From Acidobacteriota bacterium (GTDB lineage: Bacteria > Acidobacteriota > Vicinamibacteria > Vicinamibacterales > SCN-69-37), in NCBI GenBank assembly GCA_024640135.1, contig JAHEFO010000011.1, positions 1-36,102 of the forward strand: 36,102 nt of DNA. Direction: 5' to 3'. The translations under genes were made by a program, and so were the position numbers. Below, one piece after another: positions 14,089-19,038 of this stretch (its first letter is position 1; the number at the start of each line of letters is the position of its first letter). The notes under the pieces were generated by a model. The model was not told the DNA's origin and made no database searches. It was given only the letters and a program-made list of their open reading frames with translations.

Positions 14089-14613
14089 ATGTTGAATCCC
14101 GGCCTGTACGCGAATTTTGAAACCACCCTCGGCAATTTCACCGTCGAGCTCTTCGAAGACAAGGTGCCCGCGACCGTCGGCATCTTTGCCGGACTTGTGC
14201 AGGGCACAAAGGAGTGGAAACACCCCAAGACCGGCGAGACCCACAAGGACAAGCCCTACTACGATGGCATCATCTTCCACCGTGTCATCGAAGGCTTCAT
14301 GATCCAGGGCGGCGATCCGCTGGGGATGGGTCACGGTGGCCCCGGTTTCCAGTTTGCTGACGAGTTCCACCCCGATCTGCGCCATGACCAGGCGGGCGTG
14401 CTCTCGATGGCCAATGCAGGCCCGAACACCAATGGCAGCCAGTTCTTCATCACGCTGGCCGCCACGCCGCATCTCGATCGCCGGCACTCGGTCTTTGGCA
14501 AGGTTGTGGAAGGTCTCGATGTCGTCCACGCGATCGGCCGCACCCAGACTGATGCTCAGGACCGGCCCCGAACGCCGGTTGCCATGAACAAGGTCACGAT
14601 TACCAGAATCTGA
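14089..14613 (+). CDS. Cyclophilin-type peptidyl-prolyl isomerase
   Basis: 174 residues, a single cyclophilin domain without a signal peptide, so probably cytoplasmic. It catalyses cis-trans isomerisation of X-Pro bonds during folding. The active-site blocks are present: [14 protein letters not shown] with the catalytic Arg, then [19 protein letters not shown] and [15 protein letters not shown]. The insertion [20 protein letters not shown] before FHR is typical of bacterial PpiB-like proteins of this group. No Shine-Dalgarno precedes the ATG at the usual distance, and TACAAT lies 8 bases upstream, so a leaderless mRNA is plausible. Confidence 0.93.
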
Positions 14614-14700
14614 GATCTGGAATCTCGAATCGTTTATCGCGACAGCGGTAATCGGGAATCAGTAATCGAAATCGGGGGAATCGCGGAATCCCGGAATCGG
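14607..14700 (+). repeat. Degenerate AATC-rich short repeat cluster
   Basis: The non-coding stretch between the cyclophilin and blaI genes contains about ten copies of AATC in the contexts GGAATC, GTAATC and GAAATC, spaced 7 to 9 bases with G-rich fillers (best at 14648-14699). It looks like a decayed tandem repeat, similar in scale to the heptamer array at 8876-8952 but of different sequence. Confidence 0.6.
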
Positions 14701-14703
14701 ACG

Positions 14704-14748
14704 ATCTACGAAGAATTTCGTTGACATCTACGAATAGGTTCGTAATCA
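14704..14748 (+). promoter_or_regulatory. blaI promoter with two tandem dyad operators
   Basis: Two copies of ACGAA-N4-TTCGT lie at 14708-14721 and 14730-14743 (the second extends to TACGAA-TAGG-TTCGTA). Their centres are 22 bp apart, two helical turns, and each is preceded by ATCT. TTGACA (14721-14726) and TAATCA (14743-14748), 16 bases apart, form the promoter, so the second dyad fills the spacer and edges into the -10. BlaI/MecI repressors bind such tandem dyads as dimers, so autoregulation is expected. The -10 ends 7 bases before the ATG, suggesting a leaderless mRNA. Confidence 0.78.
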
Positions 14749-14755
14749 TCCGGGT

Positions 14756-15142
14756 ATGGCACAACTCCGGGCGCGACCGACCGACGCGGAATTGGCGATC
14801 CTGCAAGTCTTGTGGGACCGCGGACCGTCCACGGTCCGGCAGGTCTTCGAGACACTCGCCGACGCGCGCGAGACCGGCTACACCACGACGCTGAAACTCA
14901 TGCAGATCATGGCCGAGAAGGGCCTGGTCACTCGCGACGAGTCTGCGCGCACCCATATCTACGCCGCCAGAAGTTCACGCAACAAGACCCAGCAGCGCCT
15001 GGTCAGCGATCTGCTCGACCGCGCCTTTGGTGGTTCAGCGGCCACGTTGGTGATGCAGGCGCTCAGTTCCCATCCAACTTCGCCCGAGGAACTCCGGGAC
15101 ATCGAACGGCTGATTGCCAACTTCCGGGAGAAGAAGCGATGA
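14756..15142 (+). CDS. BlaI/MecI/CopY-family repressor
   Basis: 128 residues, typical for the family. The N-terminal winged helix starts with LRARPTDAELAILQVLWDRGPSTVRQVFETL and continues through GYTTTLKLMQIMAEKGLV; the C-terminal helices (residues ~80-125) dimerise. In the family the repressor is inactivated when a paired M56 membrane protease triggers its cleavage. The usual cleavage region lies between DNA-binding and dimer domains; here that is near TQQRLVSDLLDRAF. Two dyads directly upstream suggest it represses its own operon. Its stop overlaps the M56 gene start as ATGA (15139-15142), so the pair is made in a coupled way. Confidence 0.9.
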   Translation: MAQLRARPTDAELAILQVLWDRGPSTVRQVFETLADARETGYTTTLKLMQIMAEKGLVTRDESARTHIYAARSSRNKTQQRLVSDLLDRAFGGSAATLVMQALSSHPTSPEELRDIERLIANFREKKR

Positions 15143-17067
15143 AGGACGCACTCGCTGTCGCGCTCGTACATTTCGTCTGGCAAGGCGCCGTGCTCGCCGC
15201 AGTGGGCTGGATCCTCATGCGCCTGTCGAACGTCCCTTCGGTTCGGTATGCGATTGGTGTGGCCACGATGATGGCCATGCTGGCCGCTCCGGTTTCGACA
15301 CTTGTCGTCCTTCAGTCAGCTCACCCGCTGGTCACCGCCAGCGTGGCGTCACCGCCGTTCGCGCCTGAGTCGAGGGGCATCGTTGGAAACAACGATGGTG
15401 CAGGGGCAGAGGCACGATCTGCCGACACTGCGGTGCAAGGCTTCTCGCTTCCCACGACATGGATCTTGAGCTTGTGGGTCCTCGGTGTTGGCGTGCTGTC
15501 TCTCCGCCTTGTCGGAGGCCTGGCGATGGCCCATCGTGTCGCCACCACGACGGTCGTCCCTGTTGGCGAAGACCTTCAGCGCCTGGCGTCGCAACTGGCG
15601 GCACGGCTCAAGATGAGGGGCGCGGTGCGGGTGTGTGAGTCCGCGTCCGTGGCTGTTCCGGTCATGATCGGCTGGCTGCGCCCGGTGGTCGTCCTGCCGC
15701 CCGCGGCATTGGCGGCGCTGCCGATGGCGCAACTCGAGGCTCTGCTCGCGCACGAATTCGCACACATTCGCCGGCACGACTACCTGGTGAATCTGCTTCA
15801 AACCGCGGTCGAGACAATCTGCTTCTACCACCCGGCGGTATGGTGGATTTCACGCCGGGTGCGTCTGGAGCGTGAGCATTGCTGCGACGACGTCGCCGTG
15901 AGCGTGTGCGACCGGCTGACCTACGTTACCGCGCTGTCGACGCTTGCGGCACTGACGACACCACGGCTCGCGATGGCGGCAACCGGTGGCTCACTTCGCG
16001 AACGTGTTCGCCGCCTCATCGAACCAACCACTCATTCCGTAACAGCCAAAGGAGGCTGGATGGCCATGTTACCGATTCTCCTTGTTGTGTCACTTGTCGC
16101 GCCACAGGCCTGGGGCACGCAATCCCCCGGCCAGGTCTCTACCAGCAGACCTGATGTCGTCGAGCCGGTGTCCGCTGCTGCGAAGGTCCGGATCACCGAG
16201 CCGAACGTCGCGGCTCAGAAGGCGAACCCCCTGCGAGTGACCGTGAAGCCGTCGGCCGATGCTGCGCAAGTCCGCGTCACCACGACGAACGTCACGGCTC
16301 CGAAGGCGAATCCTCTGCGAGTGACCGTGGTTCCAACGCAGGCCGCCGTTGGGCGCAAGGCCGTTCAGAGTCCGCTGCAGCCTGATGTGCTGAAGATGAG
16401 GCTGGCTCAGGTCGGCGTGGGAAGGCGGGTCCCTGAGGAAGAGGCCGCCCAGTCGGCTGAAGCGCGTCAACGGGCTGAGCGCGCAATCGCCCTGCAGAAG
16501 CTGGAGCTGGAGCAGCGGCGTCAGGCGATGGAGCTCGAGGCGGAGATGGTCACACTTGAGGCCCACCTTCGCCAGGAGGCCGCCGCCGTCGCCCGGCAAA
16601 AGGAGCTTGTCGAGCGCGGCCTGGCCACGGAGCAGACGCTCGCCGAGGCGGAAGCGCGGATTGCCGAGACCCAGCAGCGCCTTGAGGAGGCGAAGAGACG
16701 CGGAGAATCGGCCGAGCAGGGAATCGTACTGCGGCGCCGGGAGGCTGAACTCGAGCGCTCGCTGAGCAGTCGCCAGGCGGTAGTGCAAAGTGGAATGGCG
16801 GCCCGTTCGACTCCGGACATCGACTCGCCGGTGCAGCCGCAGGATCGGCTCACGATCGTCGTCGCTGGCGAGCCGGACTTGCCCACCAGCTTCACCGTGC
16901 GCGCGGACGGCTCGATTCGGTTCCCGTTCCTCGGCGTCATTCGGGTGCAGGGATCCACGGCGCGCCAGGTGCAGTCCGTCATCCAGAAACTGATTGTCGA
17001 CAAGGGGCTGGCGGCGAATCCGGTTGTCACAGTCTCCATCGGGCGCACGCTCAGACGCGTACGGTAG
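15139..17067 (+). CDS. M56 (BlaR1-type) membrane metallopeptidase fused to coiled coil and Wza-like polysaccharide-export domain
   Basis: 642 residues. Membrane segments lie at about 8-28, 37-58, 107-126 and 306-322. The zinc protease motif HEFAH is at 205-209, with E244/E246 (LEREHCCDD) as the distal acid, as in M56 proteases. After the last helix come two copies of a 20-residue repeat (350-369 and 378-397, sharing KANPLRVTV), a long charged coiled coil (~432-545), and residues ~567-633. The last part follows the Poly_export N-terminal domain of Wza-type outer-membrane polyskeletal exporters (QPQDRLTIVVAGEPDLP, FTVRADGSIRFPFLGVIRVQG, then ANPVVTVSI). Classical BlaR1 carries a penicillin-binding sensor there instead. 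The topology puts this part in the periplasm. I infer a protease that inactivates the coupled BlaI-type repressor in response to an envelope or polysaccharide signal. The start is fixed by the ATGA overlap. Confidence 0.85.
   Translation: MKDALAVALVHFVWQGAVLAAVGWILMRLSNVPSVRYAIGVATMMAMLAAPVSTLVVLQSAHPLVTASVASPPFAPESRGIVGNNDGAGAEARSADTAVQGFSLPTTWILSLWVLGVGVLSLRLVGGLAMAHRVATTTVVPVGEDLQRLASQLAARLKMRGAVRVCESASVAVPVMIGWLRPVVVLPPAALAALPMAQLEALLAHEFAHIRRHDYLVNLLQTAVETICFYHPAVWWISRRVRLEREHCCDDVAVSVCDRLTYVTALSTLAALTTPRLAMAATGGSLRERVRRLIEPTTHSVTAKGGWMAMLPILLVVSLVAPQAWGTQSPGQVSTSRPDVVEPVSAAAKVRITEPNVAAQKANPLRVTVKPSADAAQVRVTTTNVTAPKANPLRVTVVPTQAAVGRKAVQSPLQPDVLKMRLAQVGVGRRVPEEEAAQSAEARQRAERAIALQKLELEQRRQAMELEAEMVTLEAHLRQEAAAVARQKELVERGLATEQTLAEAEARIAETQQRLEEAKRRGESAEQGIVLRRREAELERSLSSRQAVVQSGMAARSTPDIDSPVQPQDRLTIVVAGEPDLPTSFTVRADGSIRFPFLGVIRVQGSTARQVQSVIQKLIVDKGLAANPVVTVSIGRTLRRVR
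16186..16329 (+). repeat. Tandem 20-codon repeat inside the M56 fusion gene
   Basis: Two copies (16186-16245 and 16270-16329) encode VRITEPNV-AAQ-KANPLRVTV and VRVTTTNV-TAP-KANPLRVTV, 28 codons apart start to start. They form the link between the last membrane helix and the coiled coil. The high DNA identity points to a recent internal duplication. Confidence 0.8.
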
Positions 17068-17139: not shown

Positions 17140-19038
17140 ATGATCAGGAAGTTCTTCGTCTCGGGCGTTGTGGCAGTGGTTGCGTCGGTCACGGTGTGGG
17201 GGCAGGTGCCATCGACGCAGCAGGGGCGTGACAGTCAGGCCCAGGCTCAGGTCCCCGCCACGGCCCTCATCATGGGGACTGTCGTCACCGGCGGCACCGG
17301 TCAGCCCGCCGATGGCGTTCGACTGACATTGTCCGGATCCGAACTGCGTGGCTCACGTTCAACGCTGTCAGACGACAGTGGCAATTTCGTGTTCCTGGGC
17401 TTGCCGCCCGGAACCTATACGCTCCGCGCGGCCAAGGCAGGGTATGTCAGCGCCACCTTCGGTCAGAAGTCGCCGGGGCGTCCGGGAACACCGATCGTGC
17501 TCGCTGTGGGGCAGCAACTCAAGAATGTTTCAATGGCGCTGCCGAAGGGCGGCGTCATCTCAGGCATCATCTACGACGAGAAGAATCGCCCGGCGGTCAG
17601 GACGTCGGTGCGAGTGATGAAGTGGTCGATGCAGTCGGGTGAGCGAGTGCTGACCTCGGCCGGCACGGCCACCACGGACGATCGTGGAATGTATCGCGTC
17701 TTTGACCTGTCACCCGGTGACTACCTTGTCAGCGCTGCCGCCCGGAACAATTCCAGCACGGTCATCAACCTCTCGGACCTGGAGCACCTGGAGCAGATGG
17801 AACAACTGGCTTCGCTCGGCGTGAGCGGCAACGTGTCCGTCGCCCAATTCGAGACCCAACTCGAGACGTTGACCCGGGATTTGTCGAAGCCAAGTGGGCC
17901 GGCGGTTCCCGTCTCGGGTTACGCACCGGTCTATTACCCCGGCACTCCGGAGCCGGATACGGCCCAGTTTGTCAAGGTGGGCGTGAGCCAGGAACAACTG
18001 GGCATCGACTTCCAGCTTCAACGGGTGCCGCTCACCGTCGTCACGGGCCAGGTCATTGTGCCCGACGGTGTGACAGTCAACAGCGTGCAGGTGCGTCTGC
18101 GCAATCAGACAGTGTCAGCGCCGGGCACTCAGACGTTTTCTGCCCGCCCTGACCGGAATGGCCTGTTCAGGTTTGCCTCGGTACCTCCCGGGCAATATCT
18201 GCTGTCGGCCACCGTGAGCGCGCCGGCGTCACGTCTGCCAGGGGCGGTCGTCTTTCCCCAGGCGACCCCGTCCATGCAGGTGGCTCAGGAGAGGATGGTG
18301 GTGATGACTTCATCCTCCTCCAGTGGCCGTCCGCGCCTGTGGGCCAGGGCGGATGTTTCGATAGGTGGGGGCTACTCGCCGAACCTGACGCTTTCCCTGC
18401 AGGAAGGGATGACCGTCAGCGGCAGCATGACATTCAACGGTGCCGCGCCGCTGCCGCCGCGACTCGATCAGGTGCGCCTGACGCTGTCGCCTCATGGGAA
18501 CGCGATGAAGGCGCTCGGCTTGAGCTCTGTCAGCGTGAACGCCGATGCGAGCGGTCGCTTCGTTTTCAGGGGGGTCGTGCCAGGCCAGTATCGAATGCGT
18601 GCGTCCCGCGCGACTGGCTGGACCCTGAGCAGTGTCATGGCCGATGGTCGCGATGCTCTGGATTTCTGGATCGATCTCAGGCCCGGTGAGGATCTGTCGA
18701 ATGTCAGTCTTGTATTCGGCGACAAGACCACAAGACTCAACGGTGTCCTGCAGAATCCAGTTGGAGAGCCGACCGCAGACTACACGGTGGTCGTCTTTCC
18801 CGTAGACAATCGATACTGGGTGCCGTTGGCTCGCCGCGTGCGTTCCGTACGCCCGTCGACGGATGGTACGTTTTCGTTCACTGGGCTTCCGGCAGGCGAG
18901 TATCGCCTGGCCGCCGTCACCGACATGGAATCAGGTGCGTGGTTCGACCCGGCGCTGCTGCAACAACTGCAACTGGCGTCAGTCCCGGTACGTGTGATCG
19001 ACGGCCAGCCCGTCGTTCAGGATCTGCGCGTGCGCTAG
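17140..19038 (+). CDS. Secreted carboxypeptidase-regulatory-like multidomain protein
   Basis: 632 residues with a signal peptide (hydrophobic 6-20, likely cut after WGQ-type site near 21-22) and four or five beta-sandwich domains of the CarboxypepD_reg/Ig-like type. The family hallmark 'G x f x f x g l P p G x Y' recurs: NFVFLGLPPGTYTLRA (~86-101), MYRVFDLSPGDYLVSA, LFRFASVPPGQYLLSA, RFVFRGVVPGQYRMRA and TFSFTGLPAGEYRLAA. There is no TonB plug or beta-barrel, and no peptidase domain. Such proteins are abundant in acidobacteria and are thought to bind sugars or proteins at the surface; the role here is unknown. GGAGAG precedes the ATG. It lies 72 bases after the M56 gene, so it may be a target of the same BlaI switch. 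Its stop shares the CTAG with the convergent gene. Confidence 0.85.
   Translation: MIRKFFVSGVVAVVASVTVWGQVPSTQQGRDSQAQAQVPATALIMGTVVTGGTGQPADGVRLTLSGSELRGSRSTLSDDSGNFVFLGLPPGTYTLRAAKAGYVSATFGQKSPGRPGTPIVLAVGQQLKNVSMALPKGGVISGIIYDEKNRPAVRTSVRVMKWSMQSGERVLTSAGTATTDDRGMYRVFDLSPGDYLVSAAARNNSSTVINLSDLEHLEQMEQLASLGVSGNVSVAQFETQLETLTRDLSKPSGPAVPVSGYAPVYYPGTPEPDTAQFVKVGVSQEQLGIDFQLQRVPLTVVTGQVIVPDGVTVNSVQVRLRNQTVSAPGTQTFSARPDRNGLFRFASVPPGQYLLSATVSAPASRLPGAVVFPQATPSMQVAQERMVVMTSSSSSGRPRLWARADVSIGGGYSPNLTLSLQEGMTVSGSMTFNGAAPLPPRLDQVRLTLSPHGNAMKALGLSSVSVNADASGRFVFRGVVPGQYRMRASRATGWTLSSVMADGRDALDFWIDLRPGEDLSNVSLVFGDKTTRLNGVLQNPVGEPTADYTVVVFPVDNRYWVPLARRVRSVRPSTDGTFSFTGLPAGEYRLAAVTDMESGAWFDPALLQQLQLASVPVRVIDGQPVVQDLRVR

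Follow-up and report, generated by a model that had tools for sequence, protein, structure and literature searches.

A BlaR1-type M56 receptor-protease of an Acidobacteriota genome with a helical hairpin and a polysaccharide-export domain in the sensor position

A soil Acidobacteriota genome encodes, as the second gene of a BlaI-M56 operon, a BlaR1-type membrane protease that carries a helical hairpin and a polysaccharide-export domain where BlaR1 has its penicillin sensor, and this replacement of the penicillin-sensing part suggests a switch that responds to the cell envelope rather than to antibiotics. The gene lies in a stretch of 36,102 nucleotides (the window), to which coordinates refer unless another locus is named. 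Sequence comparison and structure models together define the architecture of the protein, its operon, a paired operator in front of it and the replacement of tails in place among relatives. No publication describing a fusion of M56 to Poly_export turned up in the literature searched, which included few subscription journals.

The M56 protein and its tail

The open reading frame runs uninterrupted from the ATG at 15139 to the stop at 17067, and its parts are as follows.

15139..17067, + strand: M56 receptor-protease with Poly_export tail, 642 residues (single open reading frame; Pfam M56 and Poly_export above cut-off)
15142..15225, + strand: membrane helix 1, residues 2-29 (AlphaFold model and sequence)
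15235..15321, + strand: membrane helix 2, residues 33-61 (AlphaFold model and sequence)
15238..15963, + strand: Peptidase_M56 domain, residues 34-275 (Pfam)
15454..15549, + strand: membrane helix 3, residues 106-137 (AlphaFold model and sequence)
15751..15765, + strand: HEFAH zinc motif, residues 205-209 (conservation across 40 sequences)
15868..15891, + strand: EREHCCDD, residues 244-251 (conservation across 40 sequences)
16054..16113, + strand: membrane helix 4, residues 306-325 (AlphaFold model and sequence)
16186..16254, + strand: linker repeat copy 1, residues 350-372 (sequence)
16270..16338, + strand: linker repeat copy 2, residues 378-400 (sequence)
16432..16803, + strand: antiparallel alpha-hairpin, residues 432-555 (AlphaFold models)
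16594..16629, + strand: hairpin tip RQKELVERGLAT, residues 486-497 (fits RxxxLxxxxxxS/T)
16831..17040, + strand: Poly_export domain (Wza domain 1, or D1, type), residues 565-634 (Pfam, fold comparison)

A frame error joining two genes is excluded, given the single open frame, because codon-position GC is coding-like through all four parts, from M56 to D1, and because two relatives from independent assemblies (L005 and L006, 41% and 37% identical) share the same order and architecture end to end; we regard the architecture as certain. The Peptidase_M56 match is strong (E 4.5e-26, 92.1 bits against a curated cut-off of 31), and the two zinc motifs picked out from the bare sequence hold up: in an alignment of the protein with 39 relatives most of their columns are invariant or nearly so, H205, E206, A208, H209, R245, E246, C249 and D250 being invariant in all 40 sequences. 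The HExxH-plus-downstream-Glu signature of Peptidase_M56 is thereby present as H205-E-F-A-H209 and a conserved E246, which by analogy with the family is likely to be the third zinc ligand.

The top Foldseek matches are cryo-EM structures of Staphylococcus aureus BlaR1 (8exq and 8exp, E about 6e-7, at low identity and with poor whole-chain superposition), with Wza next, and the BlaR1 model NF000326 covers no more than residues 106-262, scoring 80 bits where its cut-off is 400. Neither Pfam nor NF000326 finds a transpeptidase or penicillin-binding domain anywhere in the 642 residues, and a phmmer search of the PDB with the whole protein returned no match. With a Poly_export tail and no penicillin-binding domain, a reading as beta-lactam sensor is ruled out: the protein is a member of Peptidase_M56 and is neither a beta-lactam receptor nor an outer-membrane polysaccharide export (OPX) protein. 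The earlier note had proposed a signal-transducing M56 protease of the BlaR1 type with a Wza-like domain rather than a beta-lactam sensor, and both Pfam and Foldseek support this.

The four membrane segments it had listed recur in the AlphaFold model (mean pLDDT 78, rising above 90 over the hairpin, the greater part of M56 and a large share of D1), the protease sitting between helices 3 and 4. Everything C-terminal of helix 4 is predicted to be periplasmic on the pattern of BlaR1 topology, and the BlaR1 sensor occupies the same position as the tail described here (PMC9834060). With BlaR1/MecR1 of S. aureus and Bacillus licheniformis the protein would thus share four membrane helices, a cytoplasmic M56 site of the form HExxH...E and a periplasmic C-terminal domain, whereas the slot filled there by a penicillin-binding domain is filled here by a repeat linker, the hairpin and Poly_export. 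The linker (residues 329-430) is modelled as disordered and contains the duplication noticed from the sequence, a tandem repeat whose copies are identical at 16 of 23 residues and 55 of 69 bases.

What follows the linker had been described as a coiled coil of about 110 residues; the region is indeed helical, but it is better described as an antiparallel hairpin of two helices, 432-492 and 498-555, modelled with pLDDT mostly above 90. It matches the hairpins of the fusion proteins LipC, EmrA, HlyD and MacA at Z 9-10, matches which by themselves prove little because unrelated helical pairs reach similar Z. A profile of three tails searched against the PDB reached MacA weakly (E 0.05), and the match to the NCBIfam family RND_mfp is weak as well (E 0.046). 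The turn fits RxxxLxxxxxxS/T, the TolC-docking RLS/RLT motif of membrane-fusion proteins (PMC3391258), both in the window (RQKELVERGLAT) and in L005 (RVKQLVQVGLES); in L006 a Q replaces the L of the motif. Shuffled versions of the window hairpin have the motif at that position in 0.8% of cases, a figure to be read in the light of its having been sought after the sequence was seen, and because of this post hoc search the putative docking tip is suggestive and a lead only. With the adaptors MacA, AcrA and HlyD the protein may share a long antiparallel periplasmic alpha-hairpin and, in two of three full-length relatives, the tip motif; the sequence likeness is weak, the window protein is without lipoyl or beta-barrel domains (no Pfam match, no such strands in the AlphaFold model), and no efflux genes lie beside its gene.

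The Poly_export assignment of the C-terminal stretch proved correct, at E 1.2e-16 and 61 bits against a Pfam cut-off of 28 for the whole protein and E 1.9e-17 for the tail searched alone. AlphaFold places a small alpha/beta domain at 570-635, and comparison of the tail modelled alone with known folds, which the earlier note had suggested, bears out the likeness to Wza D1: Z 12.6 with WzaB (1.3 A over 73 residues), a class-3 export protein in the sense of PMC9603273, and Z 11.7 with Wza 84-169 (1.4 A over 74 residues, 31% identity). The D1 fold is thus shared with OPX proteins, from which the window domain differs in being fused to an inner-membrane protease and in having no SLBB, lipoprotein signal or outer-membrane helix. 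By Pfam the window protein ends after D1 with no SLBB, whereas the relatives in genomes G008 and G004 do have SLBB, in the same Poly_export-SLBB order as class-3 OPX proteins. Only one other Poly_export protein was found in the genome, an 861-residue frame with many SLBB-like repeats on contig C82, whose neighbours, judged from sequence to be Wzz-like, sugar-transferase and epimerase-like genes, mark the genome's canonical export locus.

The operon and its paired operator

The M56 gene is preceded by a BlaI-family repressor gene, the stop of which overlaps the M56 start as ATGA, and is followed by a gene for an exported protein (CReg).

14708..14721, no strand: operator dyad 1, ACGAAGAATTTCGT (pattern search)
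14721..14749, + strand: promoter-like site TTGACA-17-AATCAT, between and over the dyads (promoter scan)
14730..14743, no strand: operator dyad 2, ACGAATAGGTTCGT (pattern search)
14756..15142, + strand: blaI-family repressor, 128 residues (Pfam Penicillinase_R, E 4.5e-26)
17140..19038, + strand: exported protein with CarboxypepD_reg repeats, CReg (Pfam; 72-bp gap without terminator)

CReg has a signal-like start and five CarboxypepD_reg stretches; its gene, kept beside blaI-M56 in G004, is probably co-transcribed with them, judging from the gap. No polysaccharide gene and no beta-lactamase or PBP gene is present in the operon. As in the BlaR1/MecR1-BlaI/MecI systems, a repressor gene of the Penicillinase_R family adjoins the receptor gene and repressor dyads lie at the pair's own promoter. 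The promoter-like site matches at 10 of 12 positions (the scan returned 2 sites against 0.8 expected), and the two ACGAA-N4-TTCGT dyads flank its TTGACA and extend to the -10. In the related CopR-CopY family the operator is TACANNTGTA (PMC7253601), as against ACGAA-N4-TTCGT here. A separate feature of the region is that the gap between the upstream PPIase gene and blaI (14590-14705) is rich in imperfect GGAATC/AATCG-like words.

The dyads form a paired operator, ACGAA-N4-TTCGT-N8-ACGAA-N4-TTCGT. L005 and L006 have it upstream of blaI with an unchanged 8-base gap, and it recurs with that spacing at M56-bearing loci from Acidobacteriota, Planctomycetota and Verrucomicrobiota; in these relatives, too, it surrounds a TTGACA promoter. 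A scan of ten genomes for paired sites, with one mismatch allowed, gave a single hit in each of nine, located at the blaI promoter, and practically none elsewhere; the exception is G011, whose contig breaks off where blaI starts. The target of BlaI is therefore most likely, in the main, the operon that encodes it. A wider regulon defined by the exact operator was considered and rejected, as the genome's three remaining exact matches, all of them single sites, fall inside coding frames. Single sites with one mismatch are commoner than in the reversed control (21 against 3 on one strand) and may point to a wider regulon, and one paired site with three mismatches lies on contig C38. Elsewhere, at L052 (895-930) and L141 (1062-1097), paired dyads are flanked as GACGAA...TTCGTC and not as TACGAA...TTCGTA, perhaps reflecting another repressor specificity. 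The window genome itself (G000) also contains a second BlaI-M56 pair (contig C142, 22965-24109; L156, L003), in which the M56 protein has 349 residues and no sensor tail.

Exchange of tails at one locus

Loci identical to that of the window (L058 and L102/G084) suggest that its genome belongs to the order Vicinamibacterales. In the family to which the window genome belongs the gene order is PPIase-[blaI-M56-(CReg)]-amidase, and the M56 tail varies. It is hairpin plus D1 in the window; a linker, Poly_export and two SLBB domains in G004, of the same genus; a coil, two Poly_export and two SLBB domains in G008, where it matches the EpsE model over nearly its full length (118 bits, below the cut-off of 263); and two TonB_C domains in G011, likewise flanked by blaI and the amidase gene. 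In a quick tree the M56 core of G011 is the nearest relative of that of G008 (support 99), and the M56 proteins of G011, G012 and G007 combine the same core with one or two TonB_C domains, unlike the hairpin and D1 of the window. In the G004 operon (L150, 1482-5465) the M56 gene is interrupted by an in-frame TAG and by changes of frame, and the CReg gene by an in-frame TGA, so that the operon consists either of broken pseudogenes or of misassembled sequence. The module is missing altogether from G001 and G006, where PPIase adjoins amidase, while G005 retains only the CReg gene and G003 only a remnant of it (loci L213 to L216), a series that reads as stepwise loss within one genus. Since tails vary and the module is lost at one and the same locus, these comparisons define a single chromosomal slot in which the sensor tail has been exchanged in place.

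Among 396 genomes of the phylum the hairpin-D1 tail was found in the window genome and that of L005 (G458) only, a count that is a lower bound since few candidates were scored per genome; the genome of L006 (G062) is a third carrier. All M56 sequences with Poly_export belong to a single clade that has 11 members (SH-aLRT 94, quick tree). Across 90 sampled M56 tails, a sample biased to near relatives, 77 Pfam families are represented, among them TonB_C (6), CarboxypepD_reg (5), Poly_export (4) and Secretin (3). The earlier suggestion of an undescribed system is therefore too strong: this is a sensor swap within the BlaR1/MecR1 family, and one of many M56 tail types. Other tails observed on the way include a planctomycete one with Secretin and Secretin_N, a further case of export-machine parts joined to M56 (L054, 7015-8784), and a single open frame in G020 that joins M56, a NicO nickel-transport-like region, CarboxypepD_reg and a TonB-receptor Plug (L111, 1216-3675). 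A verrucomicrobial tail (L075, 1061-1699) resembles the periplasmic part of Wzz/Wzc co-polymerases, too weakly to be called one (no Pfam or NCBIfam match; Wzc E 0.6), and the same holds for the G008 coil (EpsF E 0.031).

What the switch may read

BlaR1 cuts BlaI directly, and ligand binding shifts its outer sensor toward the membrane (PMC9834060). By analogy, BlaI here would repress its own promoter from the two dyads, and the M56 protein would be an inner-membrane protein with a zinc site facing the cytoplasm and, on the periplasmic side, a flexible repeat linker, a fusion-protein-type alpha-hairpin and a Wza-D1-type domain at the hairpin's foot. This hairpin-D1 unit, taking the place of the BlaR1 sensor, would be the input: on gaining or losing an envelope partner it would alter the protease, which would then cut BlaI and derepress the operon, yielding more receptor and more exported CReg protein. 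Wza D1 faces the inner-membrane co-polymerase, which makes a polysaccharide-export assembly the natural guess for the partner; a TolC-type channel, prompted by the hairpin tip, comes second. That blaI and the M56 gene form a switch is likely, and the fuller reading, a one-protein transmembrane switch of the BlaR1 type whose swapped sensor reads an envelope partner and whose cleavage of BlaI derepresses the operon, has in our judgement about an even chance of being right. The proposed signal, polysaccharide export or envelope state, is inferred only, as is the physiological output, and several findings count against this reading: the operon has no polysaccharide gene, the canonical export locus lying on C82; D1 stands alone with neither SLBB nor an outer-membrane part; the hairpin resembles fusion proteins only weakly in sequence, and L006 departs from the tip motif; and several congeners have lost the module or have it in decayed form. 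Nor is the tail tied to one ligand, given the TonB_C domains of G011 at the same locus.

Given that the paired operator has almost no second copy, the switch would chiefly turn out the fusion protein and CReg themselves, and the tail might for that reason act as an effector as well. Taken further, the tail would be the cargo: the operon would make an inner-membrane-anchored export part, OPX-like or adaptor-like, with M56 and BlaI merely setting its dose and the signal arriving elsewhere. One such signal could be a cytoplasmic peptidoglycan fragment, which B. licheniformis BlaI is reported to bind (PMC3305447). The operator, found essentially only before this operon, makes the fusion protein the chief controlled product and fits this scheme, as does the nearly complete EpsE-like export protein borne by the M56 protein of G008, but export by D1 with neither SLBB nor a membrane pore is improbable and BlaR1 has a sensor at the very same position (PMC9834060); we consider the scheme unlikely.

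The great variety of tails in the slot, with D1/SLBB alternating with TonB_C at one locus, might instead mean that hairpin and D1 are an assembly device which oligomerises or spaces the receptor, the real input being membrane or peptidoglycan stress felt through the membrane part and the loop at 62-105. D1 builds rings in Wza, in keeping with such a role, yet three distant relatives conserve residues of both hairpin and D1, and we think this decidedly improbable. Least credible, and very improbable indeed, is a relic, a chance fusion decaying without signalling function: the congeners G001, G003, G004, G005 and G006 either lack the module or have only a remnant or a broken copy of it, but in the window the catalytic motifs, repressor, promoter and both dyads are all intact, and the architecture is kept, at about 41% identity, in a family that is more remote within the phylum.

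To return to the envelope-reading switch, it is tempting to generalise it to a receptor-protease that docks on an envelope exporter through borrowed parts, a ring domain and an adaptor hairpin, and converts the exporter's state of assembly, sensed across the inner membrane, into cleavage of the repressor, the exchange of OPX, SLBB and TonB_C domains then being a general way of changing the input; this we offer tentatively, as a possibility somewhat on the doubtful side. Beta-lactam sensing is, to our knowledge, almost the only role in which BlaR1 has been described. The comparisons made here extend the use of its protease/repressor core to export-machine and TonB domains in the sensor slot, and since close relatives have exchanged the content of that slot while its chromosomal position stayed fixed, it becomes possible to test directly how BlaR1-type receptors gain new signals.
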